Assembly (NCBI RefSeq): GCF_030412785.1
Contig: NZ_CP125295.1
Coordinates: 3,038,001 to 3,102,000, forward strand
Length of the DNA: 64,000 nucleotides
Source: Paraburkholderia sabiae
Lineage (GTDB): Bacteria > Pseudomonadota > Gammaproteobacteria > Burkholderiales > Burkholderiaceae
Reading direction: 5' to 3'
The notes under the pieces were generated by a model. The model searched no databases. It worked only from the letters and a program-made list of their open reading frames with translations, and had not been told where the DNA came from. The translations under genes and the position numbers were made by a program. This document shows, one piece after another, positions 37,649-60,622 of this stretch. Every line of letters begins with the position of its first letter. Position 1 is the stretch's first letter.

Positions 37649-37689
37649 CACTACCCCTCTTTCACTACACACATGTTCACGACAGCCGC

Positions 37690-39204
37690 TCAGTTACAGC
37701 GACCGTACTTGTCATCGAAGCGGACGATGTCGTCTTCACCCAGATACGCGCCCGATTGAACCTCGATGATTTGCAGCGGAACATGGCCGGGGTTCTCGAG
37801 ACGGTGCTGCACGCCGATCGGGATGTAGGTCGACTGATTCTCAGTGAGCAAGAACTGTTCATCGCCACGCGTCACGAGTGCAGTACCGCACACGACGACC
37901 CAATGCTCAGCGCGATGGTGATGCATCTGCAGCGACAGCCGTCCACCTGGGCTCACGACAATCCGCTTGACCTGAAAGCGGTCGCCGTGATCGATGGAAT
38001 CGTAAAAGCCCCATGGGCGACGTACTTTCCGATGATTCTCGGCTTCCGGCGATTTCGTCTGACGGATGCGCGATACGAGTCCCTTCACGTCCTGCACATG
38101 CGATCGGTCCGCAACAAGCACGGCATCGTCCGTTTCGACGACGACGAGATCACTCGTACCCACGCATGCGACGAGCCTGCCGCCCTGCGAACGCGCGTAC
38201 GTCGTGGTCGCGCCTTCCATCAGCACGCGGCCGTTCGCCACGTTGCCGAATTCGTCTTTCTCCATTGCCTCCCACACGGCGTCCCACGAGCCGAGATCGG
38301 ACCAGCCCGCTTCGAGCGGCACGACGACGCCCGTGAATGGCGAGTCGGGCTTGCCGAGCTGCTCCATCACCGCATAGTCGATCGAATCGGAAGGCGATTG
38401 CGCGAAGGCATCGGCACCCGGCGCAACGTAGTTGTCATCGCGCTTGGCGTTCTCGTAGGCCTGCATGCACGCGGTGTACATGTCGGGCTGAAAAACTTTC
38501 AATGCCGCGAGCCATACTGACGCGCGCATGACGAACATGCCGCTATTCCACCAGTAGCCGCCCGACGCAACGTATTGCGCTGCCAGTTCGGCTGCGGGCT
38601 TTTCGACGAAGCGATCGATGTGATGCGAGCCATCGGCCAGTTGCGCGCCGAGGCGGATATAACCGAAGCCGGTGTCGGCGCGCGTCGGCGGAACACCGAG
38701 CGTGGCGATCTCTCCAGCCTGTGCATGAAGTGCGGCGACTTCGATCGCCTGGTGCAACGCGGGCAAGTCTGCGATGGCGTGATCGGCAGGCATCACGACG
38801 AGAATGGGGTCATCGCCGTCGCTCGATGCAGCCAACGCTGCGAGCGTCAACGCAGGTGCGGTATCGCGCCGTGCAGGCTCGACGACGACACGCGGCTTCA
38901 CGCCACAATCGCGCGCCTGCTCGGACGTCACATAGAAATGCTCGACGCCGCATACGATCACCGGCTCAGCGGCTACGTCCCACGTTTTCGTGAAGCCATC
39001 CATACGCTGCATCGTGGCTTGCAGCAGCGATTGATCGCCGACGACATCGATCAGCTGTTTCGGATACTGCTCACGCGATACCGGCCAGAGTCGCGTACCG
39101 GACCCGCCAGCGAGAATGACCTGCACGAGCCGCCGTGAATCGATTGCCGTTTCTGCCGCGATAGCGACGTTTTGCTGTTCGGCATGAGTGGTCTTTTTGT
39201 CCAC
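37690..39204 (-). CDS. manC: Mannose-1-phosphate guanylyltransferase/mannose-6-phosphate isomerase
   Basis: This 504-residue bifunctional enzyme starts at GTG 39204 with GGGAG 7 nt before it. The N-terminal nucleotidyltransferase shows LAGGSGTRLWPVSREQYPKQ and FVEKP; the C-terminal type-II phosphomannose isomerase cupin shows PWGFYDSIDHGDRFQVKRI and LQMHHHRAEHWVVV. It provides GDP-mannose, so the polysaccharide probably contains mannose or a GDP-mannose-derived sugar. It shares an operon with the WcaJ-like gene. A 730-bp gap separates it from the divergent polymerase gene. Confidence 0.93.
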   Translation of the reverse strand: MDKKTTHAEQQNVAIAAETAIDSRRLVQVILAGGSGTRLWPVSREQYPKQLIDVVGDQSLLQATMQRMDGFTKTWDVAAEPVIVCGVEHFYVTSEQARDCGVKPRVVVEPARRDTAPALTLAALAASSDGDDPILVVMPADHAIADLPALHQAIEVAALHAQAGEIATLGVPPTRADTGFGYIRLGAQLADGSHHIDRFVEKPAAELAAQYVASGGYWWNSGMFVMRASVWLAALKVFQPDMYTACMQAYENAKRDDNYVAPGADAFAQSPSDSIDYAVMEQLGKPDSPFTGVVVPLEAGWSDLGSWDAVWEAMEKDEFGNVANGRVLMEGATTTYARSQGGRLVACVGTSDLVVVETDDAVLVADRSHVQDVKGLVSRIRQTKSPEAENHRKVRRPWGFYDSIDHGDRFQVKRIVVSPGGRLSLQMHHHRAEHWVVVCGTALVTRGDEQFLLTENQSTYIPIGVQHRLENPGHVPLQIIEVQSGAYLGEDDIVRFDDKYGRCN

Positions 39205-39934
39205 TTCAATCTCCCTGGTATTGAAGTCTGATCCTCATCGTCCGTTACGGTCTGGACGAAGCTCATTGGATCCAACCAACGTTTTTGGTCTGCACATCTT
39301 CCGCGTGGATTGTTGAATATCGACGCGGGAGTGAGTTGATTGCGGACCGCACAGGCCGCGAATGGCGGATGACTCACATTGATCTGCGAGCATCCGGTAC
39401 GCGTCGTGCTCGCGCAACCATTGCAGATGAATTGAAAGATCGAAGTCGGTGCAGAGGCTTGAAACAACGTGGTTTTAAACGCCCCAGTGCGACCTTATTC
39501 GACTCGACCTGAGATAGATGATAGACACCTCACGCTGCGCTACAGCATCTCTGGCGCGAACGGTTGATGTTATGGCTTGTCACGCTGAGTCTTTCGGATA
39601 AAGCCTATCATTTGGCGAATCTATCTTTTTTGAAAATCGATTTGAGCTTGGAAATACAGGGGTTTTCGTGATACGTTGCGACTAGAAGGTGTTCGCTTCT
39701 TCTCAGCGAAGCAGCTGCAGGCAGGCCCATCCCGGCTTTATTGGCCGCTTGCAGATGCCACTCTCCCAGATGTGGGAACACCACACGTCACAGCAGGTCA
39801 CAACTCTGTTCTGGCCAGTCAATCGAACACTCGATGACTCGCTACGCGTCATGTCGGATCCATGCGGTATCCATCATTGACACGCGCCGCTTTCCACCAG
39901 TGGATGTGCACAACCATTCTTCACGAGAGTCGAA
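39205..39934. other. 730-bp regulatory gap between manC and the Wzy-like gene
   Basis: The region has lower GC content than its surroundings and divides two divergent polysaccharide units. No credible gene is present: the open frames there lack ribosome sites. I checked both strands for sigma-54 (GG-N10-GC) elements and found none convincing. Confidence 0.5.
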
Positions 39935-41245
39935 ATGGCTTATATATCGGTATTGGCGCTATTCCTGACGGTTACCAACCTGATACCTGTTAGCGCAGTG
40001 GGATTTTTGCCGATCGTCCTCTGCGCGTGGCGCTTTTTCGGAAGAAGCTACCCTTCTTTTATCGGCCCGTTGACAGCGCTCACACTCTACATAATCGTCT
40101 CGACGCTGCTTTACGATCCGCATTCTCTCGTCGAGTTCGAGTTCTACCGGCGCGATGGTAACTATTTCATTTCCTATGCGCCGATCTTCGCAGGCTGCCT
40201 GTATGCCCATCGTTGGGACATGAACAAGCTGCTGCGCGCGTTCTTCGTGTTCGCGGTGCTGATCAATATTCCGCCGTATCTGCTGTATTTCGCGCAGAAC
40301 GGCCTGCTCGCCATTTTCAAGCATCCCGACGACAGCTTCGGCAGTTTCTTCATCGCACGTAATGCGGCAGGCGGCTTTCTCGCGATGCTGTTCTGTCTTG
40401 GCGTCGCATGCTATCTCCAGCAGCGCAGCAGGATCATGGTCGCGCTGATCGCGCTCAACGGGCTCATGCTCTTTTCGACGTATAGCCGTGGCTCGCTGCT
40501 GGGCGCACTGGCCGTGCTTCCCTATCTGTATTTCGGCCGCAAGCGCCTGATTCTCGCGTCGCTGATGAGCGTTCTCGTGGTGGCGTCGCTTGCCATGGCG
40601 AGCTATCACACGCTGCCCAACGTCAACTATATGGGCTACACGTTCTCGATCCAGAACGCGGACGCGAAGCTCGCGAACCTCAACATTCGTTACGAATGGC
40701 TGTGGCCGAGAGCGCTGGCGTACTTCGTCCAGAGCCCAATAGTCGGGATGGGATTCGGTTCGTTCGACGATACGATCCGCAATGTCACGTCGTATTTCGG
40801 CGTGCTCGCCGTGCCGTCCGATATCGTTGTCGAACATAGCGACTCGCACGCTCACAATTCCTATCTGAACTTCCTGGCCGAGACGGGCGTGGTCGGCCTG
40901 ACGCTGCTGCTGGCTTTCTACTGGAAGCTCATCAAGTGGAGTCAGAACGGCGCTGCGCGCAGCGCGCTCGTCGAACACGGACAGAACTTCGCGGCTTACC
41001 GCTTCGTCGAGATCTCTTCCGTGTGTCTGCTCGTGATGGCGGCGACGGAACACCGGCTGGTGTCGCCGTCGAACGTGCTGATTCTGTCTCTCGTGATCTC
41101 GCTGCTGCTGGCGTCGCGCCCCTTGCGCGTGATGAAGCCCGTAAGCGACCCGCGGCGCGCGCTGCATCCGCAGCCGCCGCCTTATCGCGAGCGCGGGCAA
41201 GCTGCTTATCCTGCTGCGACGGGACGCAGCGTGCCCGGCTCGTAA
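39935..41245 (+). CDS. Wzy-like O-antigen ligase/polymerase family membrane protein
   Basis: This 436-residue protein has ten or more membrane helices and a large periplasmic loop (around residues 225-320) carrying the Wzy_C-type segment: NLNIRYEWLWPRALAYFVQSPIVGMGFGSF and HSDSHAHNSYLNFLAETGVVG. Such proteins join lipid-linked repeat units into chains or onto lipid A; in this setting polymerisation is more likely. The C-terminal 50 residues are a basic, Pro-rich tail. It is divergent from manC and followed by a PAP2 phosphatase gene. Confidence 0.88.
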   Translation: MAYISVLALFLTVTNLIPVSAVGFLPIVLCAWRFFGRSYPSFIGPLTALTLYIIVSTLLYDPHSLVEFEFYRRDGNYFISYAPIFAGCLYAHRWDMNKLLRAFFVFAVLINIPPYLLYFAQNGLLAIFKHPDDSFGSFFIARNAAGGFLAMLFCLGVACYLQQRSRIMVALIALNGLMLFSTYSRGSLLGALAVLPYLYFGRKRLILASLMSVLVVASLAMASYHTLPNVNYMGYTFSIQNADAKLANLNIRYEWLWPRALAYFVQSPIVGMGFGSFDDTIRNVTSYFGVLAVPSDIVVEHSDSHAHNSYLNFLAETGVVGLTLLLAFYWKLIKWSQNGAARSALVEHGQNFAAYRFVEISSVCLLVMAATEHRLVSPSNVLILSLVISLLLASRPLRVMKPVSDPRRALHPQPPPYRERGQAAYPAATGRSVPGS

Positions 41246-41270
41246 ATCTTAAGGAACCGAACAAAACCGT

Positions 41271-41900
41271 ATGTGGAAAATCGATCCGTGGACCGTCTAT
41301 TCCAACGTTGGCGATGCCGCCGTCACGCTGCCCGTGGCGGTCGTATGCGCTATCTGGCTTGCCAGGACCGATCTGCGCCTTGCCTTGCGCTGGGCGCTGA
41401 CGTTGAGCTGCGCAATGCTGCCCGTCGGCGTCAGCAAGATCCTGTATTACGCATGGGACATTTCATTGCCGCTGGCTGACTTTCGCGTGATCAGCGGGCA
41501 CACGATGCTATCGACGGCCGTGTGGGCCGTCGCACTCGCACTGCAATTGAAATGGTGGCGCCTGCCTGCGTTTCCGGGCATTGCAGCAGGTCTGCTGTTA
41601 GGCGCGTTGACGGGTGCTTCGCGCGTACACGGGCATTCGCACTCGGTCGCGGAAGTTCTCGTGGGTTGGGTGATCGGTACGATCGCGGCGACGGTGTTTC
41701 TGCACACCGCGCTTCGCGTCGACTACAAGCCGTTTCGGGCCGTGTGGTCGACGCTTTGCCTGCTGGCGGTGTCGACACTGGCTTATGGCCACACCGCGCC
41801 GTTTCAGGATCTCATCGAGGAACACTCCGCGGCGCTTAAAGAGAACACGCCCGGAGTAGTCTGCGCGCTGTCACGCGCGCGTTCGAAGGACCACAGCTAA
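41271..41900 (+). CDS. PAP2-family membrane phosphatase
   Basis: This 209-residue membrane protein has the three PAP2 signatures, though degenerate in part: the first near KILYYAWDI, then ISGHTMLS (the SGH motif) and SRVHGHSHSVAEVL (the SR-x5-H motif with HSH). It probably dephosphorylates undecaprenyl pyrophosphate left after polymerisation, so that the carrier lipid returns. It follows the polymerase gene by 25 bp on the same strand, and ends convergent with a glycosyltransferase gene. Confidence 0.85.
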   Translation: MWKIDPWTVYSNVGDAAVTLPVAVVCAIWLARTDLRLALRWALTLSCAMLPVGVSKILYYAWDISLPLADFRVISGHTMLSTAVWAVALALQLKWWRLPAFPGIAAGLLLGALTGASRVHGHSHSVAEVLVGWVIGTIAATVFLHTALRVDYKPFRAVWSTLCLLAVSTLAYGHTAPFQDLIEEHSAALKENTPGVVCALSRARSKDHS

Positions 41901-41909
41901 AAACCAGAC

Positions 41910-43112
41910 TCAAACGAGCAGATGTCGCTCGCGTTCTTCGTCCTTGATGGACTTCACTGACACTTCTTCATCGACGGGATACGGCAGCGTCGGATCGACG
42001 AAACTGTCCGGCATCCGTGCGTCGATGAAGGACGTCAACGCCGTCTTGAACTTCTCCGACGAGAACCGTTCTGCATTCCTGCGGCACTGACGCGCATCGA
42101 ACAGGCCCGAGTACTTCTCGAAACGCTCGACCGCTTCGAGCAGCGACTCGGTCGTTTGCTCCTTGAAGAACACGCCTGTGGGCCGTTCGCGCGGCAAGCC
42201 GAGCACCGACTCGAGCGCGCCGCCTCTACCGAACGCGACCACGGGTGTTCCGCACGCCTGCGCTTCCACGACCGAAATGCCGAAATCTTCTTCTGCCGCG
42301 AACACGAAAGCACGTGCGCGCTGAAGATGATCGACCAGCACGTCGAACGGCTGATGACCGAGGATCGTCACGTTATCGCCGGCGGCCGCCTTGACCTTCT
42401 TCATGTCCGGGCCGTCGCCGATCACTACCAGCTTGCGTTCCGGCGTCTGCGAAAAGGCCTTCACGATCAGATCGATTCGCTTGTACGGCACCATACGCGA
42501 AGCCGTCACATAGAAGTCGTCCTTCTTCTCGCGCATCGGCATATGACTCAGATCGACGGGCGGATAGATGACCGTCGCGTCGCGCTGATAAGCCTTCCTG
42601 ATCCGCCGTGCTATGAACTTCGAATTGGCGAGCAGATGATCGACACCGTTCGCGGAACGCGAATCCCAGCCTCGAATGTAGTGCAGCAGCACGCGCGCCA
42701 TCGCTGACTTCAGGCCTGAAGTCAGATGCGACTCGCGCAGGTACTGATGCTGCAAATCCCACGCATAGCGAATGGGCGAATGCACGTAGCTCACATGCAT
42801 CTGGTTCGGTCCCGTCAGCACGCCCTTGGCAACCGCATGCGAACTCGAAATGACGAGGTCGTATGCGGAGAGATCGAGCTGCTCGATCGCAATCGGCATC
42901 AAGGGCAGATAGGCCCGATAACGCTTGCGCGCGAACGGCAGCCGCTGAATGAACGAAGTCTGCACTGGCTTGCCTTTGATGCAAGCCCGGTCTTCCATGA
43001 AGTCGACCAGCGAAAACAGGTCCGCGTTCGGGAAGCATTCGATTATGTTCTGCAGCACTTTCTCAGCGCCGCCCGATACCACCAACCAGTCGTGAACAAT
43101 GGCAACTTTCAC
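41910..43112 (-). CDS. GT4-family glycosyltransferase
   Basis: I start this 400-residue enzyme at GTG 43112, with AGGGAGG 5 nt before it, giving the standard N-terminus VKVAIVHDWLVVSGGAEKV. The C-terminal GT-B domain shows the donor site: RMVPYKRIDLIVKAF, LVVIGDGPDMKKVK and EDFGISVVEAQACGTPVVAFGRGGALE. It adds a sugar to the lipid-linked repeat unit at the cytoplasmic face. It is the last gene of the large minus-strand operon that starts with wzc. Its sugar donor is unknown. Confidence 0.92.
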   Translation of the reverse strand: MKVAIVHDWLVVSGGAEKVLQNIIECFPNADLFSLVDFMEDRACIKGKPVQTSFIQRLPFARKRYRAYLPLMPIAIEQLDLSAYDLVISSSHAVAKGVLTGPNQMHVSYVHSPIRYAWDLQHQYLRESHLTSGLKSAMARVLLHYIRGWDSRSANGVDHLLANSKFIARRIRKAYQRDATVIYPPVDLSHMPMREKKDDFYVTASRMVPYKRIDLIVKAFSQTPERKLVVIGDGPDMKKVKAAAGDNVTILGHQPFDVLVDHLQRARAFVFAAEEDFGISVVEAQACGTPVVAFGRGGALESVLGLPRERPTGVFFKEQTTESLLEAVERFEKYSGLFDARQCRRNAERFSSEKFKTALTSFIDARMPDSFVDPTLPYPVDEEVSVKSIKDEERERHLLV

Positions 43113-43181
43113 CGCGACCTCCCTGTTCTCGTTCAATCCGTCCGTAGCCTGATGCATCTTTTCAACAGCATCGGAATTCAA

Positions 43182-44492
43182 TCAATCGTCCTTGCCTGCG
43201 CCACCTCGTGCGCCCCACGCAACGCGCGCCATTGCGATGGCACGCCCTGCGCCGGGCACCAGCGTGATCAGTTCCTGCCGGATCATGACGGTCAACAACA
43301 TCATGGAAAGCGACAGCTCGCCGATCACACGAGCGAACGCCATGCCTTCTGCTCCGTATCGCGGCGCGAGATACAGTGCCGCGACAAGATTCAGGACGCC
43401 GGAAGCGGCGCCCGCAATAGCAAGCAGGCGATCTTTCTTGCGCGGCACGAATACATAGAACGCTGCGAATTCGTTGAAAGCCGCAAACGGGAACATCCAT
43501 GCAAAGCACTGCAACACGTGACCGCTCGGCGTAAAGGCATTACCGAGAATCAGCGGCAAGACGAACGGCGACAACGTCAATGCGCCGCAAAACACAAGCA
43601 AACCGTAGCCCAGCATGAGCGTCGCGCCGCGTCTCGTGGTCGCGTGCGCGCCCGCCTTGTCGCCTTGAGCCAGTTGACGCGAAATGGTCGGAATGAACAC
43701 CTGCGACGCCGGGCCCATCAAGGCCAGACCAATCGTCGCGAACCGCTCGGCAGCGCCGAAATAGCCCACCTGCGCGGGCGTCGACAACAGCGTCAACAGA
43801 TACGTCGACGATGCCGTGAGCACGACCGAGCCTGACGAATAGCAGAAGAGCATCGTCGAGCCTTTCACGAGGTCCGTAATGCCCTCGAACGAAAGATGCG
43901 GCCGTCCAAGCTGGTAAGTCGCGAGCCCGTACGAAATGGCGAGAGACAGTACGCCCGCGGTCAACAGGCTCGCCACGACCCAGACGGAGTCCGCCGGCCC
44001 TTTTACAAGGCACAGCACGAGCCCGAGACTCACCGCGAAACCGAACACCTCGATCATGATCGGCGTGCGGAAATGGTGACGTCCCTGATACAGCCAGCCA
44101 AGGTTCAATGCCGACACGACCCCTAACGCCGTCGCGAGAAAGCCGATCAGCGGCCGCTCCGACAGCGTCGGCGAACAGTAGGTCGCAATCGCGCCGATGC
44201 AGCCGCCTAGCACGCCTAGCGCAAGCCGCGCGCTGACGTGCAACGAATAGATGGAGTTGCATTCGCTATTTGTCTGCGCCTTCGAAATCTCCCGCATGCC
44301 GACGAACGTGAAGCCATAGCTCGCCAGCATCCAGATGACATTCATGAGCGACATCGCCGCGAGCACCCGCCCGTATTCGGCGACGCCCAGCACGCGTCCA
44401 TAGAACGGCACGACGATGATGAGGTACACGTACCTCATCAGGTAGCCGCCGTAGACGAACACTATGACGTTTGCGCTCTTTTTACCGTCCAT
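43182..44492 (-). CDS. Wzx-type polysaccharide flippase
   Basis: This 436-residue protein has about twelve membrane helices and the polysaccharide-biosynthesis MOP-superfamily pattern (RVLGVAEYGRVLAAMSLMNVIWMLASYGF, FSSGSVVLTA-type helices). It flips the undecaprenyl-linked repeat unit to the periplasmic side. It lies between the GT2 and GT4 genes in the same operon, with 33 and 69 bp gaps. Together with the Wzy-like and Wzc genes it makes a Wzx/Wzy-dependent pathway. Confidence 0.9.
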   Translation of the reverse strand: MDGKKSANVIVFVYGGYLMRYVYLIIVVPFYGRVLGVAEYGRVLAAMSLMNVIWMLASYGFTFVGMREISKAQTNSECNSIYSLHVSARLALGVLGGCIGAIATYCSPTLSERPLIGFLATALGVVSALNLGWLYQGRHHFRTPIMIEVFGFAVSLGLVLCLVKGPADSVWVVASLLTAGVLSLAISYGLATYQLGRPHLSFEGITDLVKGSTMLFCYSSGSVVLTASSTYLLTLLSTPAQVGYFGAAERFATIGLALMGPASQVFIPTISRQLAQGDKAGAHATTRRGATLMLGYGLLVFCGALTLSPFVLPLILGNAFTPSGHVLQCFAWMFPFAAFNEFAAFYVFVPRKKDRLLAIAGAASGVLNLVAALYLAPRYGAEGMAFARVIGELSLSMMLLTVMIRQELITLVPGAGRAIAMARVAWGARGGAGKDD

Positions 44493-44525
44493 ACCAACCT
44501 CTCCTGTATCCGCGACGCTGCATGG

Positions 44526-45536
44526 CTAGTGCCCGGCCGTGCTACGACGCGCTAGCGGGTTGGTGATGTACCGCACCACGAAATCGGAAAGCGGCGAATA
44601 AGGCAGCAGACACAGACTCGAAAGAAACAGCGTGCCCACTTTCTTCTTCGTGCCCCAGAACGGGTTCGCGACGATCGAATGCAGATAGTCGCGCGAATCG
44701 TGCAGCATCCAGCGCCAGCGCTTACCCAGCGACGCGTGATAAAGGCTCGAACCGAAGTACGCCTTCTCATGCGCGAAGTCGTGAAATGAAGGCGGCAGAT
44801 CCAGACCCAGACGGTCTCTGGCGATCTCGCGAAGCGCGACCCATCGTTCCTTGAACGCTTTCGGCGCCTTGTTGATCTGCTCCGAGTTCGCAAACGACAC
44901 GCTCGGCGACGCCGTGTGATGAACGCGATACGCGCCGAGAGAATGCGTCAGCGTGGCAACGGGGCCAACCAGCGCCGCGCCATAAATCGCGTAGAAATCG
45001 GCCCCATAGCGGTTGATGCCGCCTTCGGGTACGGGAAACACCGCCTTCAGCGCACGCACGCTATAGGCATTGCCCGACGCCGGCGGCGACGGATACAGCC
45101 AGCCAGCCCGCAGCAGACTGCCGCAGTCCGCGGGCGGCTCGGTGTGCGGCACGTGCGCACCCGTCTGCTGGCCCGCTTCGTCGATCACGTCGAGACGGAA
45201 CTGCACCTTCGCGAGATCGGCCTCGTTGAACTTGCGCATCACCTCCGACACGACGCCGGGATACAGCACGTCATCCGAGTCGAGAAAAATCACATACTCC
45301 GTACCGGCGATTTCGACGCCAAGGTTGTAAGCGGACACCTGTCCGCCGTTTTCCTTGAATACAGCCTTCACGCGCGAGCCGTATTGCTCGATGATCGCTC
45401 GCGAGCCATCCGTCGATCCGTCGTCGATGACGATCACGCGCGTGCCGGGATAGTCCTGCGACAGTGCGGAATCGATCGCCTCGGCAAGGAAGCGTTCGTA
45501 GTTGTAGTTGCAAATGACGATGGCAATCTCTTTCAT
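44526..45536 (-). CDS. GT2-family glycosyltransferase
   Basis: ATG 45536 follows GAGG, giving 336 residues with MKEIAIVICNYNYERFLAEA at the start. The GT-A domain shows VIVIDDGSTDGSRAI and the DxD-type VIFLDSDDVL. The C-terminal 120 residues contain no membrane helix, though a hydrophobic stretch (LFLSSLCLLPYSPLSDF) could touch the membrane. It extends the lipid-linked repeat unit. Upstream is the GH gene, 49 bp away; downstream the flippase. Confidence 0.9.
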   Translation of the reverse strand: MKEIAIVICNYNYERFLAEAIDSALSQDYPGTRVIVIDDGSTDGSRAIIEQYGSRVKAVFKENGGQVSAYNLGVEIAGTEYVIFLDSDDVLYPGVVSEVMRKFNEADLAKVQFRLDVIDEAGQQTGAHVPHTEPPADCGSLLRAGWLYPSPPASGNAYSVRALKAVFPVPEGGINRYGADFYAIYGAALVGPVATLTHSLGAYRVHHTASPSVSFANSEQINKAPKAFKERWVALREIARDRLGLDLPPSFHDFAHEKAYFGSSLYHASLGKRWRWMLHDSRDYLHSIVANPFWGTKKKVGTLFLSSLCLLPYSPLSDFVVRYITNPLARRSTAGH

Positions 45537-45585
45537 AAAGCCTCGTAGCAATTAATAGGATCAGTCGGCAAAGTACGCGTCTCCC

Positions 45586-47034
45586 TCAAGCTGACTTCCC
45601 CTGACCGGCACGCACGACGAGATACGCGAGGTGTCTCGGCGGCTTCCTGTCGGCGCCATTGACGTTATCCGGCACGCGAAAACGTATGCTCATGCCGTCG
45701 TTATTCCAGTTCAGCGTGGCGTCATCCTTCGAAGCGGTCGTGCCCGTCAATGCGTCGACGAACAGCACCTGCGCGCCGCCCGACGGCGCCGCGATGCCCG
45801 CCGTCTGCACCGTGCGCCAGCCCGGCGGCGCGCTCACCTGGATCACCACATCCTTGTCGGACAGCAGGCCCGAACCCGCGACATCCGGACCGAAGTGCAG
45901 CGGCTGCGGCAACGGCGCCAGCGCACCGGGAGCCGTCTGGTTCAGCACGATCAGGCTTTTGCCCGACACGTTGTACGTGCGCTCCGGCGGTCCGCGATGA
46001 GTCAGTCGAAACGGCTCGTAGCCGTCCCAGTGGTAGATCATCGACACATACTTGTCCGGGTCGTCCCAGTTGCGCGCGAGCGCCCACACGGCAAACTCGA
46101 AGAAATAGCGCGGCAGGTAGTGCGGGTCGATCATGTACCTGTCGCCGATTTCCGTTTGCCACAAGCCGCGCGCGGGACCCTGCCTGACGTAGCGTTCATA
46201 CAGCCCGTCGAGATCGGATACGGACAGGTAGTGCGTATCGAGGTAATCGACCCAGTCGGCCATCCGCGCATTCAGATGCGGGCTTTTGAACGCGAGCCAC
46301 TTGTCGAGGTTGTCGAGCCCGCCCTGATCGGGCCATCCGCCATACACGACATACGCGCCGTAGCGGCGAATGATCCGTGCAGCCGGAATGTGAATCCGCT
46401 CGACATAGTCCTGCATCGCCTGTTCGTAAGGACCGGAGCGATGTTCATCCTTGTCGAACTTCGGGCCGTGCCAGAACGTCGCTTGCGGCAAGCCGCCCGA
46501 CAGCCGCCCTGCCGCTTCATTCCAGATCTGAAAGTGACGCACGCCATACGGGGCCGCCGAGTACTTTTTAACCACGGCATCCACGTACTTTTCCCACGCC
46601 GACACATCTTCCGGCGCCGATTTCGTATCGCCGGGCACACTCGCATTCCACTTCGGCGTATAGCCGAGGAACAGCAGCGAGCGGATCCCGTTCTGGTTGT
46701 CGCGCAACACGACCGACGGCAGATCGCTGTCGAAACGATTGCCCGTTCTGTCGACACTCATTGGTTGCGTCGACGCATCCGGTTGCCCCGGTCCGACCGA
46801 GCCGCGCCCCCAGCTGATGCCCATCTTCTTCCACATCGCGATGTCGGCAGCCGAGCTGGGCCAACCATTCGTTCCGATCAGGTCGGTCATTCTGCGCGGC
46901 GCGCGGCTACCCGCAGCGCCCGATGCAGCTGCGTTGGCGGCATGCGCGCGAAAGGGCGGCAAGCCTGCGCACGCCAATGCTGCGAGCGTCGTCAGCACGC
47001 GTCGTCGGGAGGGCTGGTACTTGATTCGATCCAT
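45586..47034 (-). CDS. Tat-exported glycoside hydrolase, GH-A clan (GH39-like)
   Basis: Starting at ATG 47034, the 482-residue protein has a twin-arginine-like signal (SRRRVLTTLAALACAGLPPF). The TIM-barrel part contains the acid/base motif HFQIWNEAAG and a nucleophile candidate in GLWQTEIGDRY, as in GH39/GH5 enzymes. A C-terminal beta domain follows residue 360. Within polysaccharide operons such enzymes usually trim or depolymerise the polymer in the periplasm. It is in the middle of the wzc-led operon, next to a GT gene (20 bp gap). Confidence 0.82.
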   Translation of the reverse strand: MDRIKYQPSRRRVLTTLAALACAGLPPFRAHAANAAASGAAGSRAPRRMTDLIGTNGWPSSAADIAMWKKMGISWGRGSVGPGQPDASTQPMSVDRTGNRFDSDLPSVVLRDNQNGIRSLLFLGYTPKWNASVPGDTKSAPEDVSAWEKYVDAVVKKYSAAPYGVRHFQIWNEAAGRLSGGLPQATFWHGPKFDKDEHRSGPYEQAMQDYVERIHIPAARIIRRYGAYVVYGGWPDQGGLDNLDKWLAFKSPHLNARMADWVDYLDTHYLSVSDLDGLYERYVRQGPARGLWQTEIGDRYMIDPHYLPRYFFEFAVWALARNWDDPDKYVSMIYHWDGYEPFRLTHRGPPERTYNVSGKSLIVLNQTAPGALAPLPQPLHFGPDVAGSGLLSDKDVVIQVSAPPGWRTVQTAGIAAPSGGAQVLFVDALTGTTASKDDATLNWNNDGMSIRFRVPDNVNGADRKPPRHLAYLVVRAGQGKSA

Positions 47035-47053
47035 AGGCTGCCCCGCTCGCCGC

Positions 47054-48169
47054 TCAGCCCGCCGACACACGTGCCGACATCTCCGAAACAGGCTCGCTCT
47101 CCTTGCCATACAGCACATCGAGCAGCCGCTTCGCCGAACGGTCCCAGCGAAACTCGCGCGCATGCGCCATACCTTTTGCCCGGTACTGTTGCCGGATTGC
47201 GCTGTGCGTCATCATCAGCGCGATCTTCTCCGTCATGTCCGCAACCGACATCGCATCGCAGTACATCGCGGCATCGCCGCATGCTTCAGGGATCGACGTG
47301 CGCGACGACGCGATCACGGGACATCCGCAATACATCGCCTCGAGCGGCGGCAATCCGAAGCCTTCATACAGCGAAGGAAACACCAGGCATCCCGCATGCT
47401 GATAAAGCGCCTTCAATTCGCCATCGGAGACGAAGCCGGCCCAGATGATCTGCTTCGAGCGCGACATCGCCTCCAGTCCATCATTGGCGAAGATCCGCTG
47501 ATTCTTGCCACCGACGATCACGAACCGCACGTCGCGCAAATGACTCAGGCCAGAGACCGCTTCGAGAACGCGCTGAAGGTTCTTGCGCGGATCGAGACTT
47601 CCGACGATCACGCAATACGTGTCGTCCTTCAATTGCAGACGATCGAGCACGCCTGGTTCAGGCACGACGCGATCGAGGTGATCCGCTCCCGGCTGGATCA
47701 CGGCGATGCGCGACTCGTCGATCTTCAGGTGATGACTGATGCGGCGCTTCGAAAACGTGGACACCGTCAACACGAGTGGCTCCATGCGCGGCAGGATCGA
47801 GAAGCACAGCCGGTACCACAGCAGAAACTTCTTCGAGAATCCATTCGGTACGTCGTACACGGCCATGTCGTGAACCATCACCACCTGCCGGCGCTTGAGA
47901 ATAGGATTTGTGTTGCACAGATTGACGAGCGTGCGTCCACGGGCCGCGATCGGCAGCGTGATCTGCTCCCACAGCGTGCCGCGCAGCCACGGAAAGCGCC
48001 GCTGCCGCTTGAGCGACGCGCCGGGTTCTCGCGCATCCTGCGGCACGAAGATTTCCAGATCGCTGCCTGGGGATTCGCGCATTTGCATTGCACGTGTGAG
48101 TTCATAAGCGACTCGCTGAACGCCTGTAACAGGCTGCGAAGTGAACTTGCCGTTGATCGCGAATGCCAT
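47054..48169 (-). CDS. GT4-family glycosyltransferase
   Basis: ATG 48169 has GGAGA 7-8 nt before it; the product has 371 residues. It starts [26 protein letters not shown], a common opening for this subfamily. The GT-B C-terminal domain shows [64 protein letters not shown]. It is the second gene after wzc in the operon. Its donor and acceptor sugars are unknown. Confidence 0.92.
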
Positions 48170-48227
48170 GGTGATTCTCCGCCTCACGAAGTTGTCTGGT
48201 TGCAGTGCTTGCGTAAAAACAGCCCTG

Positions 48228-50570
48228 TCAGGCGGTTGTCTCGACGTCCCCGAAATCGCTTGCGTAGTTCGTGGCGTAGCCGTAGTTCTTCGTGCTGCGG
48301 CGCAACGGAATGCCGTTGAAAACCGCACCCGCGACACGTCCGCCCGCGCGCTCGATCTTCTTGACCGTGTCGGCAATCTCTTCTTCCGATTGCATCCCCG
48401 AGCGCAGCACCAGCAGCGACGCACCGGCTTCGTTTGCGATGATGGAAGCGTCAGTCACGGCGAGGAACGGCGGCGTATCGACGATCACCATGTCGAAGTG
48501 ATTGCTCAGGCGCTGCAGCACTTCCCGGAAGCGAGGACGCGTCAGCAATGCAGCCGGGTTCTCGGGACGCGCGCCGCACGACATGAACGTCACGCCTTCG
48601 ATACCGACATGACGCAATGCGTCGCGCAGCGGCATACGTTCGGCGAGTACTTCCGAGAGACCGCCGCGATTGCTCTGGCTGAAGAACGCCGCAAGGTGTC
48701 CACGACGCATGTCGCCGTCGACCAGCGCGACACGTGCGCCCGCTTCCGCATGCAGCGTCGCGAGATTCGCCGCGACAAAGCTCTTGCCCGCCGACGTGGT
48801 CGGCCCCGTCACCATCACGATGTTGTTGCGGGTGTGGGCGAGATCGCGCGCCATCGCCGTGCGAACGGCGCGCAACGCCTCGACGGACGAATCGTGCGGG
48901 AAACGCTCGGCAAGAATCTTGTTGCCCGAGTAGCCGAACGACGGATCGATCTTCTCGTCGGCAGCCGCTTCGCCTCCGTCCACACCGCGCTGCACTGGCA
49001 CCACGTTGCGCGCAGGCGCACCCTGCAATGGTTTTCGCGCGGAGGCCGGCAAGCTGCGGTCAAGCAGCGACTGCTGATGACTGAACAGCACCTCGCCGAT
49101 CACCGGCACGCTCAGACGACGCTCGACGTAGCGCGGATCGGTCACGCCGACCAGCACATGGCGACGCATGAACACGAGGAACACGCCCGACACGAGACCG
49201 AGTACGAAGCCGCCCGGCAGCACGATCAGCGGATCCGGCTTGACGGGGCGATGAGGCCGCACAGCGCTGTCGAGAATGTGCGCGCCACCCGTTGTGCTCG
49301 CACGACGCACGGTCAGCTGTTCGGCCTTCTGCACCATGCCCATATAGACGGTTTCCGCGACCTTCTGCGAGCGGATCAGATCGACGCTCTCACGCTCGGA
49401 CGCCGGCATGCCCTGGAAGCGGCCGTCGAAGTCGGACTTCGTCTTCTTCAATTGCGCGAGCTGCGCGTCGATGCTCTGGATCCAGCGGCTTCCCGGCGCG
49501 TACTTGTCGAGCAATTGCGTACGTTGCAGTTCGAGGCTCGCGATCTGCTTGTCGAGATCGAGACCGCCCTGCAAGTACGATTGCGCTTCGGCCGTCGGCT
49601 GCATCGAATTGGCTTTCGCACGGAAAGTCTTCAATGCTTCTTCCGACTTGCGCAAATCGGCAAGCAGTCGAGGCAATTCGCCCTTGATGAACGTCAGCGT
49701 CTGCGTGTCGTTCGCCTGACGGCCGGCAATGGCGGACGCGAGATACTGCTGGCCAAGTGCATTCGCCACTTCCGCGGCCTTGGACGGGCTCTTGTCCGCG
49801 TACTCGATCTGGATGAGGCCGGAGTCCTTGACCTTGTCGGTGATCTTCACGACATCCATGAAGCGCTTCGTCGCATCCACCTGGTTCCAGCGAGTCACTT
49901 CGAAGCGCGTATCCGGGCGAGCGGCAAGCTGATTGATCATCACCGAAATGCCGTTGCTTTCGACAGGCTTGCCCACCGTGCCCTTGACGAGAAATTCGCC
50001 GGACGGGCCGAGCAGTTCGTATGCGCCGTTGCCGAGCGCGACGAGACTCAGCTTCTCTTCCTCGAGATTCTGCGGGACGTTGAGATAGCCGAACTTCACG
50101 ACCTCGCCACCCCATGCAAACGACTTGAGGCCCAGCCATGCGCCATTCGGTTCACCCGGCGTCGCGAACTTGTCCGCGATATCGCCGAGGATCGGAATGC
50201 GGCGCGGCTTCACGGAGATGTCGAAGCGGTACTTGTCGATCACGGGATCGAGCACCGCACGGCTGCGCATGACGCCCATTTCCGTACTCGGTGACGGCGC
50301 GGGCGGCGGCAGCTGCTCCTGGTTCTGAAGCGCGAGGCCGAGTGCATTGGCTTCGGGTGGATCGACGCGCACGAGCACATCGGCCGAATAGATCGGCGTG
50401 GCGATGAGTTGATACGCGACCGCAAGCAGGAACACCACGACAGTCGCCGCGACGATCTCCCAGATGTGGTCCCGCATCAGGTTGAGCATCTCTCGACCGG
50501 TGAGCTGCCCGCGCTCAACCTCAGGGGCAACAGGAAGCGAGTTCGAGGGGTAATAATCCACGGGAATCAT
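48228..50570 (-). CDS. Wzc-type polysaccharide co-polymerase and tyrosine autokinase
   Basis: This 780-residue protein has an N-terminal Wzz domain with a membrane helix at residues 37-57, a long periplasmic coiled region, a second helix near residue 455, and a BY-kinase domain: Walker A VTGPTTSAGKSF (about 585), Walker A' LVDGDMRRGH and Walker B VIVDTPPFLAV. Three tyrosines (NYGYATNY) near the C-terminus are the likely autophosphorylation cluster. It governs chain length and export. Its usual partners Wza and Wzb are not in the window. ATG 50570 has AAAGG directly against it; a GTG four codons later is an alternative. Confidence 0.92.
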   Translation of the reverse strand: MIPVDYYPSNSLPVAPEVERGQLTGREMLNLMRDHIWEIVAATVVVFLLAVAYQLIATPIYSADVLVRVDPPEANALGLALQNQEQLPPPAPSPSTEMGVMRSRAVLDPVIDKYRFDISVKPRRIPILGDIADKFATPGEPNGAWLGLKSFAWGGEVVKFGYLNVPQNLEEEKLSLVALGNGAYELLGPSGEFLVKGTVGKPVESNGISVMINQLAARPDTRFEVTRWNQVDATKRFMDVVKITDKVKDSGLIQIEYADKSPSKAAEVANALGQQYLASAIAGRQANDTQTLTFIKGELPRLLADLRKSEEALKTFRAKANSMQPTAEAQSYLQGGLDLDKQIASLELQRTQLLDKYAPGSRWIQSIDAQLAQLKKTKSDFDGRFQGMPASERESVDLIRSQKVAETVYMGMVQKAEQLTVRRASTTGGAHILDSAVRPHRPVKPDPLIVLPGGFVLGLVSGVFLVFMRRHVLVGVTDPRYVERRLSVPVIGEVLFSHQQSLLDRSLPASARKPLQGAPARNVVPVQRGVDGGEAAADEKIDPSFGYSGNKILAERFPHDSSVEALRAVRTAMARDLAHTRNNIVMVTGPTTSAGKSFVAANLATLHAEAGARVALVDGDMRRGHLAAFFSQSNRGGLSEVLAERMPLRDALRHVGIEGVTFMSCGARPENPAALLTRPRFREVLQRLSNHFDMVIVDTPPFLAVTDASIIANEAGASLLVLRSGMQSEEEIADTVKKIERAGGRVAGAVFNGIPLRRSTKNYGYATNYASDFGDVETTA

Positions 50571-50880
50571 CCTTTGATAACCGGTTGTCGAGCGAGCTGA
50601 AAAGCACGTGAATCCACGACCGGACGGCGACATGAAGCCGCCGGAAGGGACGCAACAGAAGCTCGATCAGCCGTGCTCGGGCCGATGATGAGTTACAGGG
50701 ACGGCTGACAGCAGCAACCGCAGGGCGTGATAACGCCGGGGTTGTTAGAGGCCGTTTCAGAACGTCAGGACGAGAAGAGCAAGATGCTTTGCGTGTTCAC
50801 TCATGCGCTATCCTTTTTATCGTCACTGGCGATTGCGAAGAGCCCGCCGTATCTCCGCTGATCTGGAGACCTGATCGAAT

Positions 50881-51379: not shown

Positions 51380-51512
51380 ACAGTAAAAATTTCCCACACC
51401 CGAACGATTTCGCCACATCGATCGCGCCAATCGGACAACGGTCGCATGCCCCTTTTCTCTACGGTATTCTGATTTGCGTCGAATTGTTGCGCATTAATTG
51501 GGAGAGCTAACG

Positions 51513-56051: not shown

Positions 56052-57107
56052 TTACGCGATTGCGGCTTTTTCCTCGTCGTAGGCGTCGTGTGCGAATTCC
56101 GGCTCAAGGACATTGGCGCTCGAATCGCTGCCTTGCTCCACCGCTTCTGTTTCCGGCGTGCCTCGCGTCCATGCACGGTATTCGGTTGGCGACTTGCCGA
56201 CGCACCGTCGAAACAGCTTCCCCAGGCGGTCGCCGTTGCTCAGTCCCACGCGCCGCGCGACCTTGTCGGCGGGCAGTGACGTCTCTGCCAGCAACTGACA
56301 CGCGCGCTCGAGGCGAACCCGCTGCAAATACTCGGAAGGCGACGCGCCGATATGCGTCTGGAAGTTGCGAAGCAGCGTGCGCTGGCTCATCGCACACGCT
56401 TCCGCAGCATCGGCAACGCTGACCGAGCGATGACAGTTCTCCTGAAGCCAGCGAGCCGCCGCGCGGATTCTGTCCACCGCCGTATTGGTCGCGTCGACAG
56501 AAGGGGAAAGCCATTCGCTCGAATCGACGAATGCGGTACGGCGCAATGCCTCGTGTGCAATCGGTTCGCCGAAATCCGCGCGGATCACTTCGAATGCCGC
56601 TTTGACTGCGCTGCCCAGCTGCGCCCTTCTCCTGCGCGCCTGCTCATATCCGCTCGCCACACCCGCACCGTTGTCCGACCCCATCACGGCGCCCATATTC
56701 GATGTATCGACGCCTGCCGCGAGGAACCTGACGGGTGTGCCATGCGCGCGCACGCGCTGCAGCCACGCGGCAAGAGGCGGCGCATCGCACGTTGCTCGCG
56801 CATTCACGCCGCCCGCGATAAACACGCGCGCGTAGCGTGTCTCGCTGCCCGTCGGCAACTCGTCCGTCGAGACGAACAGCGATCGATCGCATTTGATGTG
56901 TCCACCGCTTTCCGACAGAAACTGCAGTTCGTACTTTCGCGCCGCCGAGTTCGTTTCGAGCGAGCATGCGCATTCGAGCGCTTCGGCGATCGCGCCGATT
57001 CCGAGCAGATCACATGCGTCGGTAAGAACGAAAGCGATTCGTTGTGTAGACGAAGTCGCGCTGAAATGCTTGTGTGGTATCCATTGCAAGTTATTCTCGA
57101 CGAACAT
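56052..57107 (-). CDS. Second GlxA-like AraC-family regulator
   Basis: ATG 57107 follows GGGAG; the product has 351 residues. Its layout is the same as the regulator at 51513: an N-terminal PfpI/GATase-like domain (RIAFVLTDACDLLGIGAIAEALE) and a C-terminal AraC domain (VSVADAAEACAMSQRTLLRNFQTHIGASPSEYLQRVRLERACQLL, ADKVARRVGLSNGDRLGKLFRRCVGKSP). The two regulators differ clearly in their first half, so they are unlikely to be a recent duplication. It lies between the two GH lipoprotein genes and is likely to regulate them. The ligand is unknown. Confidence 0.88.
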   Translation of the reverse strand: MFVENNLQWIPHKHFSATSSTQRIAFVLTDACDLLGIGAIAEALECACSLETNSAARKYELQFLSESGGHIKCDRSLFVSTDELPTGSETRYARVFIAGGVNARATCDAPPLAAWLQRVRAHGTPVRFLAAGVDTSNMGAVMGSDNGAGVASGYEQARRRRAQLGSAVKAAFEVIRADFGEPIAHEALRRTAFVDSSEWLSPSVDATNTAVDRIRAAARWLQENCHRSVSVADAAEACAMSQRTLLRNFQTHIGASPSEYLQRVRLERACQLLAETSLPADKVARRVGLSNGDRLGKLFRRCVGKSPTEYRAWTRGTPETEAVEQGSDSSANVLEPEFAHDAYDEEKAAIA

Positions 57108-57237
57108 GGTCGCTCCCGCGTGTTTTGTAATGACATGCCTGCGCATGCAATGACTACTAAGACGATCGTTTAAGTCTTTCGCTTAAATGCCCCACTGAAT
57201 ACCAGCCCGGGGGGCGTTCTGCTTCTTTCAGCTTCTG

Positions 57238-58632
57238 TCAGCGCGCTCCCAGCGCCTGCGTGACGGCCCGCACGACATCGGATGGATCGGCTGAACGTGG
57301 GAACCATGTGTCCCAATGCGCCCAGTCGAGCCGCGCATCGTCGGTCGAGAAGGCGATCATCACAGGCCGATCCTGCACATCCAACGCTTCGAGCAGGTCG
57401 TCCGCAGCGACGACGCCGCGCGGGCTCGAACTCACGATCACACGTGGATTGAGCCGCCGCGCTTCGTTGCGCGCTTCTTCCGTCGTGAGCGCGGGCATCA
57501 CGTACATGCCCTTCGACGTCAGACGCGACACCAGTTGCGACAGACGTCCGGCATCGGGATCGAGCACCAGCACATCGATGCGTGCTGCCGACTGCGCTGC
57601 GCGTCGATGCAGACGCGGCCGCACGCGCGAGCGCACCCAGCGCCTGAGCGGCCACACGGTCCGGTTGAGTTCGTGCCTCAGCACGAGACTTCTCCACACG
57701 TGCGGCGCGCTGAACCCCGGACGACGCGCCTGACGTTCGAGCAAGCGCTTGCAGCCAGGCAGATGAAGTAGCGAACAGCCTTTGAACCAGCGCAGATCGC
57801 GATGCGTGTTCCCCGACCAGTGGCGTCCGACCATGCGATGTGCGCCGAGATCGATGATGGGATGGCCATCGTCGGCAAGCAGATTGAGTGCAGCGGAAAT
57901 AAATGCTTCGTCCCCGTTGTGATTCAGTTCGTGGATGAGATGCGTATAGCGCTCGAAGCACGCGTGCGCGCGCGGCACCAGCGCGCTGATGAATCCCGCC
58001 GATGCGACGAGAATCTCGCCGCCAAACCATCTCGGGTTCTGCAGCCGCGTGCCCGCCACGGATTCGAGATCCGCGATCACGCGCGCATCGCCATAAGCCG
58101 AGAACTCCTGATCGGAGATATCGAAAGCGCCGACGCCCGTCATCAGGCAGCGCGCCAGCAGTTCTCCATCAACCGTGTGAAGCGCGAGCATGTCGGTGTC
58201 GAGCACCATCAGCAGTTCGCCTTCTCGCAACGTCGCGCCTAACTGCTCCATCATGTCGAGCTTGAAATGCGCGCTATAGAAGCGCGTGATCTTCGGCAGC
58301 GTGAGTACCGAGGGAGCCAGCTGTATGACGTGCGGACGCGCGTCTGCGTCGACCTTCTCGAGATACTGCATGACCTGATCGGCAACATTCGTTGCCACGG
58401 TCAGTGTGGGCAGTCCCACTGCCTTGAGACTCCGGTTCAACGTGATGGCCTGCTCCACATAGCAGAAGGGATCGTCGCTCGTGCAGTTGGGGCTGCCTGC
58501 GCTATCCGTTTCGATGTAGACGAGCGCGCACGGCACCACGCCAACGGCGCAATGAAGCAAGCCGGACGGTAAAGGTGACGTCTGTCTGATTGTTGGTGCG
58601 AAGTCTTTGCGCAGGAGCGCTGCGTCGAACAT
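57238..58632 (-). CDS. Glycosyltransferase fused to a degenerate receiver domain
   Basis: ATG 58632 follows GGAGG, giving 464 residues. Residues 30-330 look like a nucleotide-sugar transferase: VLDTDMLAL provides a DxD, with NHNGDEAFISAALNLL and LGAHRMVGRHWSG later. The last 114 residues (about 351-464) follow the response-regulator pattern: IDVLVLDPDAGRLSQLVSRL with acidic Asp, then the strand VIVSSSP where the phosphorylated Asp should be, VMIAFSTDD, and FPRSADPSDVVRAV where Lys-Pro is expected. Phosphorylation is therefore unlikely. A sigma-54-like promoter lies 100 bp upstream. I know no family with this fusion. Confidence 0.75.
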   Translation of the reverse strand: MFDAALLRKDFAPTIRQTSPLPSGLLHCAVGVVPCALVYIETDSAGSPNCTSDDPFCYVEQAITLNRSLKAVGLPTLTVATNVADQVMQYLEKVDADARPHVIQLAPSVLTLPKITRFYSAHFKLDMMEQLGATLREGELLMVLDTDMLALHTVDGELLARCLMTGVGAFDISDQEFSAYGDARVIADLESVAGTRLQNPRWFGGEILVASAGFISALVPRAHACFERYTHLIHELNHNGDEAFISAALNLLADDGHPIIDLGAHRMVGRHWSGNTHRDLRWFKGCSLLHLPGCKRLLERQARRPGFSAPHVWRSLVLRHELNRTVWPLRRWVRSRVRPRLHRRAAQSAARIDVLVLDPDAGRLSQLVSRLTSKGMYVMPALTTEEARNEARRLNPRVIVSSSPRGVVAADDLLEALDVQDRPVMIAFSTDDARLDWAHWDTWFPRSADPSDVVRAVTQALGAR

Positions 58633-58742
58633 CGTCGCCTCCGGGTTGACAGGAAAGGTGAGGCGCGTCGTCCTCGACCGCTGCTCAGGCTGCATGTGAC
58701 ACGCTTTCGCAATGCGCATTCAATGCGTGGCGCATGGGAATA

Positions 58743-58915: not shown

Positions 58916-60622
58916 TCAATTGTCAGGGTGGCTCGTAACGAAACTCACGAACGCGTTATAGGGAAGATTCAACGTCACGCCATCGATCATCACGCCATAC
59001 GTCGCGTCGCCGCTATCGAGCACGTAGTACATCACCGATTGAATGTTCTTTGTCTTTCTCGCCTGATAGTAAGTCGCGTATCGCGCGCTGATGTAATTCG
59101 CGCGATATGACTGGCTCTTCTCCGGCCCCGTGTTCCATTCGGTGAGCAGAAACGGCACGCCATAACGCGCCTTGCAGTACGTGGGCAGATCGAAGCCAGG
59201 ACCGGCGCCATCTGTGCCGAGATCGAAGATGTCGCCGTAGACCTCGTAGTTGTGCCACGTCGTCAGATCCCATCGCACTTGCGGATAGCCGCTCGTACCG
59301 TCGGGCTGTCGGCCGTCCCACAATGCGTCGGCGGCGCCGATATCGGCCACGCAGAAGTTGATGCCGCACTTCGCGCCCGGTTGCGCCGACTTCACGCCGT
59401 CGATCATCCCGCGCATCACGCCGCGCATGGCGGGCCAGTTGCCGTTGCTGAAGTCGGCGGCCTTCGTACCTGCGTTGGTCGAGTCGAGAATGATGGCGCT
59501 GTCGCGCGTCAGTTCGTTACCGCATTCGTACATCACGACACCGTACCGCGACAGCGCCGCAGCCACCGTCGCTCCGCATGCCTTGCCTCGCGCATACGCA
59601 GCCGATTCGCTCGTGAACACGACGCCGTTCGAGTCGCGCACGCCGATGTTGACGAGCACGAACAACGTCAACCCTGCCGCCTGAAATGCCTGCGCGAGAC
59701 GCGTTACAGCGCCGAGTTGCACGGGGTCGTCGGTGCAGCCGACACGGTATGTCGAGCAGCCCATGTTCTGCATGATCTGCACGACTTGCGCGGCCGTGTA
59801 GCGGTAATCGTAGTGTCCGTTGATACCGTGAAATGTGCCGCTCGTTGCCGCGACTGCGATACGCGGATCGCTGCATGGCAGCCACTGGTCGAGATCGGTG
59901 CACACGTAGAACTGGCCGCCCGTCGAGCGATACCAGACCTTTCCGCCGTACCACAGCAGCAGCGCGACATTCGACGTCACGCCGACATACGCGTTGTTGC
60001 GCAGAACCATGCCGTTGGACACGGTCCATAGCGCGCCCATCTTGTCGATGATGTATGGGGCCGACGGAATGGTGGTGCCGTCGGCGGACGTGCCGCCCAG
60101 ACGCGGGTCGTTGCACGCGAGCCAGGTCGTGCCGTTCCATCCATAGAACTGTCCGCCCGTGCCCTTGTGATACACGCCATTGCCGTACCACAGCAGCAGC
60201 GACACGTTATACGTGTTGCCCGCGGCGACACCGTTGCGATACACGGACCCGTTGACGAGCGTCCAGAGCGCGCCCTGGTTGTCGGTGATCGACGCAGCGG
60301 GCGGCACTTCCGTGCCACTGGGCGATCCGACCGTGCCACTGTTCGAACCAGCGTTGGGATCGGTCGACGAACCCGACGTAGCGCCGTTCGACGTGTTCGT
60401 CGTCCCTCCGTTGACGGCCGACGACGTCTTGCCGTTCTGCGTCGTCGACGTGTTCGATGTGGTCGCGGTCGTGGCGCCCGTCGTCGCGCTGCTGCCCGTT
60501 GCGCTGGCGCTGCTCGCGTTGCCCTCGCCGCCCGCGCTGCCGCCACCGCCACCGCATGCGGTCAGCACGAAACCGCCGCCCATCGCGGTGACCAAACCAA
60601 GAAACTGACGACGTTTAACCAT
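58916..60622 (-). CDS. Secreted GH-A clan hydrolase-like lipoprotein with two N-terminal repeats (paralogue 2)
   Basis: This 568-residue paralogue of the protein at 53658-55211 starts MVKRRQFLGLVTAMGGGFVL with the lipobox LTAC and a Gly-rich run. A Ser/Thr/Asn/Gly-rich linker of about 80 residues (absent in paralogue 1) separates the anchor from two repeats (WTLVNGSVYRNG, GNTYNVSLLLWYG; WTVSNGMVLRNN, SNVALLLWYG). The hydrolase part keeps MYECGNELTRDS and FLLTEWNTGPEK. The long linker suggests that the enzyme is held away from the membrane. It sits downstream of the fusion-gene promoter region and divergent from the ferredoxin reductase gene. Confidence 0.8.
   Translation of the reverse strand: MVKRRQFLGLVTAMGGGFVLTACGGGGGSAGGEGNASSASATGSSATTGATTATTSNTSTTQNGKTSSAVNGGTTNTSNGATSGSSTDPNAGSNSGTVGSPSGTEVPPAASITDNQGALWTLVNGSVYRNGVAAGNTYNVSLLLWYGNGVYHKGTGGQFYGWNGTTWLACNDPRLGGTSADGTTIPSAPYIIDKMGALWTVSNGMVLRNNAYVGVTSNVALLLWYGGKVWYRSTGGQFYVCTDLDQWLPCSDPRIAVAATSGTFHGINGHYDYRYTAAQVVQIMQNMGCSTYRVGCTDDPVQLGAVTRLAQAFQAAGLTLFVLVNIGVRDSNGVVFTSESAAYARGKACGATVAAALSRYGVVMYECGNELTRDSAIILDSTNAGTKAADFSNGNWPAMRGVMRGMIDGVKSAQPGAKCGINFCVADIGAADALWDGRQPDGTSGYPQVRWDLTTWHNYEVYGDIFDLGTDGAGPGFDLPTYCKARYGVPFLLTEWNTGPEKSQSYRANYISARYATYYQARKTKNIQSVMYYVLDSGDATYGVMIDGVTLNLPYNAFVSFVTSHPDN

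Follow-up and report, generated by a model that had tools for sequence, protein, structure and literature searches.

A predicted GT-A glycosyltransferase with a C-terminal pseudo-receiver domain near an exopolysaccharide cluster of Paraburkholderia sabiae

As described in those parts of the literature on which we draw here, pseudo-receivers, which have the receiver fold without the phosphotransfer residues, act by docking (FrzS with SgmX), by ligand binding (ShkA with cyclic di-GMP (c-di-GMP), CikA, KaiA) or as constitutive dimers (PMC12632262, PMC7010744, PMC1974792), and a 2025 review calls the activation and inactivation of the bacterial domains a mystery (PMC12632262). The pseudo-receiver of FrzS from Myxococcus xanthus (PDB 2GKG) lacks the phospho-accepting aspartate (PMC1974792), and the FrzS protein controls exopolysaccharide production (PMC3158785). 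Receivers also occur fused to glycosyltransferases: in Methanobacteriaceae, one or two receiver domains are joined to a BcsA-like glycosyltransferase domain (PF13641; MTH_548), an arrangement confined in that account to three genera of the one family (PMC5847659). Here we describe a gene in a 64,000-nucleotide stretch of the Paraburkholderia sabiae genome (hereafter the window; NZ_CP125295.1, positions 3,038,001 to 3,102,000) whose product joins a predicted GT-A glycosyltransferase to a C-terminal pseudo-receiver (Table 1). Like the archaeal fusions it combines a receiver with a glycosyltransferase, and like FrzS it has no phospho-accepting aspartate. It differs from the former, which are reported as REC domains, in its type of enzyme, its degenerate receiver and its lineage, and from pseudo-receivers generally, as reviewed in PMC12632262, in that a single active-site residue is left, that the domain lies C-terminal to an enzyme and that Pfam does not detect it in the window's protein.

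The first-pass annotation of the window had read this open reading frame (ORF) as a glycosyltransferase joined to a dead receiver. Its coordinates are correct, and the strand, which it omitted, is minus; the gene runs from the ATG at 58632 to the stop codon at 57238-57240, while an alternative in-frame ATG upstream at 58719 would give a 493-residue protein. The same two-domain layout, for which the annotation had pointed to other Burkholderiaceae, is present in eleven further intact genes with full-length products 49-90% identical to the window protein. The fused ORF is therefore not a frame artefact, and a glycosyltransferase with a C-terminal pseudo-receiver in one protein is, in our judgement, nearly certain. 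These 12 intact fused genes form alignment A1.

The C-terminal domain adopts the (beta/alpha)5 receiver fold in predicted models, and its relationship to receivers is recognisable by both profile and fold: the AlphaFold2 (AF2) model, Foldseek/VIA and profile searches agree, as the annotation had anticipated. The best PDB sequence match of the domain profile is the FrzS pseudo-receiver (E 3e-6). We considered a chance resemblance to receivers and rejected it on the profile searches and fold comparison. In a residue table of 17 sequences, the phospho-acceptor Asp, the Thr/Ser and the Lys are retained in none, which extends to the whole set the loss of Asp (in the segment VIVSSSP) and of Lys that the annotation had recognised. 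The second acidic residue, DD2, is acidic in none of the 16 sequences with a letter at that position. DD1, acidic in 15 of 15 such sequences, is the sole surviving active-site residue, and the aromatic residue at K-3 is kept in all 17 (16 Trp, one Phe). The domain thus lacks the active-site set of phosphorylated receivers (DD, D, T, K) and shows the loss of key phosphotransfer residues that marks pseudo-receivers. By its sequence it appears to be a receiver without the residues needed to accept a phosphoryl group, and because these are missing it is not expected to act by aspartyl phosphorylation. At K and K+1, FrzS has Lys-Pro whereas this domain has Arg or Gly followed by Ser (profile alignment), and FrzS itself acts in polarity and ends in a predicted coiled coil. 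We know of no enzyme domain in FrzS.

For the N-terminal part, the annotation's call of a glycosyltransferase was borne out by fold comparison. The predicted model and alignment reveal the GT-A fold with a DxD motif (D145/D147, in the segment VLDTDMLAL as annotated) that characterises GT8 (CAZy) and PF01501. A PDB sequence search with the profile of alignment A2 (the window protein and 46 loci; duplicates, fragments, broken genes and unfetched genus-search matches excluded) returned nothing relevant, so the enzyme is placed by fold comparison only. Pfam and NCBIfam scans of the window protein and 47 aligned members found neither GT8/PF01501, nor PF13641, nor any other glycosyltransferase family by name; among the 47, PF00072 matched one (E 0.036) and DUF6492 one (0.12), other matches being at noise level, and the PF00072 gathering score was not reached. 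Membership in a known Pfam or NCBIfam glycosyltransferase family was rejected, as none matched, and we class the domain as GT8-like, not as GT8. LgtC, LARGE1 and glycogenin, all GT8 enzymes, are among the closest known systems, as is WbbM (PDB 6U4B). The protein is thus probably a metal-dependent GT-A (GT8-like) glycosyltransferase, and we presume it to be catalytically active.

The annotation knew of no described family with this fusion. Given the Methanobacteriaceae proteins (PMC5847659), this does not hold for receiver-glycosyltransferase fusions at large. For the present type, literature searches judged by titles and abstract openings turned up no description of a receiver joined to a GT8-like enzyme. 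No such fusion is described in the portions of PMC10333796 and PMC7824862 at hand, and the main text of a survey of aspartate-less receivers, which lists architectures in its supplement, does not contain "glycosyl" (PMC4395418).

As the best explanation overall, we lean modestly towards a membrane-held GT-A transferase whose pseudo-receiver provides a docking or control surface. The basic amphipathic helix between the domains would hold the transferase at the inner membrane; residues 309-347 carry a net charge of +10, and the amphipathic stretch 318-335 has a hydrophobic moment of 0.46, a score equalled by one helix within the glycosyltransferase domain. The enzyme would probably add or decorate a sugar on the exopolysaccharide that the nearby Wzx/Wzy/Wzc cluster makes, or on the lipid-linked precursor of this polymer. 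The annotation had rightly placed the gene in a polysaccharide region, as the core cluster including Wzc spans 36272-50633. The pseudo-receiver would most likely be a phosphorylation-independent docking or control surface, with the conserved alpha4-beta5-alpha5 region as contact face (10 of the 17 rows were used in one analysis of the conservation of residues 430-449), and docking would place the enzyme or gate its activity; we see the chances of this particular mechanism as evenly balanced. It falls within what the annotation had suggested as possible roles of the domain, namely tethering of the enzyme to a partner, or signal sensing that needs no phosphorylation. More tentatively, and at somewhat less than even chances, the fused pseudo-receiver may directly switch or position a bacterial GT-A transferase without phosphorylation, through a partner or ligand at the Trp/Asp-rich alpha4-beta5 region. 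If true, this would be a new way to couple signalling to exopolysaccharide assembly within a single polypeptide.

The downstream AraC-type regulator is a weak candidate for the partner. It adjoins 9 of the 12 intact fused genes, including three that have no exopolysaccharide-cluster matches nearby, but it stays in four receiver-less genomes (L043-L046) and is absent beside L027, L047/L108 and L031. Alternatively, the receiver could be a ligand sensor that turns the transferase on or off when a small molecule binds at beta5-alpha5; candidates would be an intermediate of the pathway or c-di-GMP, the ligand of ShkA REC1. Enzymes of exopolysaccharide synthesis are often targeted by c-di-GMP, and the invariably aromatic K-3 position would suit such a site, but the site in ShkA presumably has an Arg near K+3, where this domain has an Asp (D449). 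Pseudo-receivers with c-di-GMP, quinones or end products as ligands are known (PMC12632262, PMC7010744). On balance, we consider a ligand sensor unlikely.

Selection on the fused gene bears on two further alternatives. Compared with the three closest orthologues (L024, L035 and L036), the ratio of nonsynonymous to synonymous substitution (omega, Nei-Gojobori) comes to 0.10, 0.22 and 0.18 in the receiver, 0.10, 0.08 and 0.10 in the transferase, and 1.05-1.30 in residues 1-29; in the other eight pairs it is 0.13-0.60 for the receiver versus 0.07-0.22 for the transferase, synonymous sites being near saturation in several. The low receiver values against the closest orthologues, together with 12 intact open frames, argue against a mere passenger, that is, a fossil of the fusion that is being lost and has no present role. 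Repeated loss and decay of the receiver would fit a passenger, as would the higher omega against the most distant relatives (0.60 for L047 and 0.44 for L031, where synonymous sites are near saturation), yet we regard it as improbable. Purifying selection would also suit a structural role in which the receiver carries no signal and only stabilises the enzyme or keeps it constitutively dimeric, and repeated loss would suit a dispensable role of this kind; fifteen of the available pseudo-receiver structures are reported as dimeric without phosphorylation (PMC12632262). However, receiver-less relatives have open frames long enough for the whole enzyme, and the receiver is therefore not needed for folding in general; we consider a purely structural role rather doubtful.

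The preferred docking or control surface has in turn to accommodate the history of the domain. A midpoint-rooted tree built from 51 rows of the transferase domain places the 15 rows labelled as fused, of which L028, L029 and L074 come from broken genes, in one 25-row branch with support of 100/100. This branch also holds six transferase-only and four truncated genes, and at least four state changes are required; L002, L031 and L034 have long branches and an unsure placement. A single gain of the receiver in a Paraburkholderia branch followed by several losses is most likely; the tree alone is indecisive, and this course is favoured over repeated gains because the receivers are recognisably one family. 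Single gain with repeated loss would therefore mean that the receiver tunes rather than enables the enzyme.

Several observations weigh against this interpretation. With regard to the fold, the hhalign alignment covers just 79 of 118 columns, with beta5-alpha5 outside it, single sequences give 44-93% (45% for the window protein), and the fused protein of the window has no Pfam or NCBIfam match. The domain profile also matches designed Rossmann-type proteins in PDB (best 0.0066) and, above 0.01, a small number of unrelated chains. For the pseudo-receiver, neither a partner nor a ligand was found, ligand motifs not having been searched. The receiver is dispensable over evolution: orthologues in four genomes (G335, G371, G315 and G395), about 80-81% identical and followed by the same AraC gene, stop at the junction after 344 residues, with no receiver trace behind the transferase at E 0.05 in the loci examined (gene order further out was compared only for L107, from one of these genomes). 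Behind the transferase of L003/L032 lies a short, decayed piece of receiver in another frame, L028 and L029 are interrupted at or close to the junction, and L113, at an exopolysaccharide locus, retains only a remnant, detected within the receiver. Finally, five fused copies have no exopolysaccharide-cluster matches within the 15-21 kb examined; three of these (L111, L112 and L118) lie beside an AraC gene, while L108 and L031 have neither AraC nor cluster matches.

Close orthologues with the receiver (the window's, L024, L035, L036, L025 and L026) and without it (L043-L046) occur between the same neighbours, so a comparison of these similar enzymes can serve to test what the receiver does. As the pseudo-receiver is attached to an enzyme with a predicted measurable reaction, this reaction would report directly on a class of signalling domains that is little understood.

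We surveyed sampled genomes at the level of genus, family, class and phylum; with 5, 11 or 14 candidates scored per genome, the transferase counts are lower bounds. The transferase alone is the more widespread part, found in at least 52 of 144 genus genomes and in at least 18 of 299 family genomes (at least 4 of 25 genera), and matching genomes in the class and phylum samples are all Burkholderiaceae (at least 1 of 369, the window's own genome, and at least 3 of 349). The receiver part matches in 13 of the 144 genus genomes, one of which (G347, L071/L115) was rejected as a lone pseudo-receiver, its match being a canonical receiver. Fused genes with a named source come from Paraburkholderia and from two isolates deposited under the name Burkholderia sp., the rest from the window's genus, and a copy on a plasmid of Paraburkholderia sp. 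FT54 is annotated "response regulator receiver protein". Receivers of far members are 30-41% identical to the window's copy. At L068 and L070 the receiver is kept and the transferase absent. The former (L068/L110, G374 C21) is a 165-residue frame in which a family-like leader runs in frame into the pseudo-receiver, and it may be a gene for a pseudo-receiver that stands alone; the lone-domain frame at L070/L114 is broken near its end. A second transferase of the family, which has no receiver, is encoded in the window's own genome (L002, L106; G000:C1:4192840-4193790) and is 60% identical over residues 30-349; in the 20 kb around it, the other matches to window genes are only a GT2 relative (57%) and an AraC relative (36%), 7-9 kb distant.

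Table 1. Features of the fused gene and its surroundings (window coordinates).
Feature	Position	Strand	Basis
Fused gene, 464 residues: GT-A glycosyltransferase and pseudo-receiver	57238..58632 (including stop codon)	-	ORF, translation, intact relatives
GGAGG, putative Shine-Dalgarno-like element 5 bases ahead of the ATG at 58632	58638..58642	-	Sequence
Glycosyltransferase domain, residues 28-308, GT-A fold, GT8-like	57709..58551	-	
DxD motif, D145-T146-D147	58192..58200	-	Both Asp invariant in 47 sequences (alignment A2)
Long basic helix, residues 309-347, possible membrane-associating linker	57592..57708	-	AF2
Pseudo-receiver domain, residues 351-464	57241..57582	-	AF2, Foldseek/VIA, profile searches, residue table
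S402 at the phospho-Asp position	57427..57429	-	Alignments to FrzS and 28 of 30 own-genome receiver loci
Residues 430-449: shortened alpha4, beta5 and beta5-alpha5 loop; conserved D436, D441, W443, F444, S447	57286..57345	-	Conservation
Core exopolysaccharide cluster: WcaJ-like initiator, ManC-like, Wzy_C, PAP2, two GT4-type transferases, flippase, GT2	36272..48424	.	
Wzc-type polysaccharide co-polymerase/tyrosine autokinase of the cluster	48228..50633	-	
Downstream AraC-type regulator	56052..57146	-	Pfam, neighbours
Upstream protein, CGGGGG lipobox-like N-terminus, no Pfam/NCBIfam family, possibly glycosidase-like	58916..60622	-	By eye

After Wzc, the window continues with an AraC gene, a TupA-like ATP-grasp gene, a putatively secreted glycosidase-like protein, a second AraC gene, the fused gene and a second putatively secreted protein. 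The order from upstream secreted protein through the fused gene to Wzc is kept in L024, L025, L028 and L107, and in L026 without the second secreted protein; it is partly kept in L027 and L029, where neither the upstream secreted protein nor the AraC neighbour is present. A scan for promoters and terminators gave signal no higher than in shuffled sequence. The proteins encoded at 58916-60622 and 53658-55211 (both minus strand) are paralogous, with full-length cross-matches of about 62-72% in relatives, where they are kept beside the fused gene. Both have a KRRQFLG Tat-like start, a CGGGG lipobox-like motif and no Pfam or NCBIfam match, and by eye they resemble secreted clan GH-A glycosidases. 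In Paraburkholderia sp. Tr-20389, an open frame with a CSGGGG lipobox-like start after the fused gene (L031 11673-13367) recalls these two proteins. The AraC/FtrA-like regulators at 51498-52550 (plus strand) and 56052-57146 flank the accessory end of the cluster and cross-match at about 30-32% identity in relatives. At 62377-63642 (plus strand) lies a gene for a leucine-rich-repeat protein with ten LRR_4 stretches, which is also found beside the cluster in L024, L025, L026, L028 and L107.
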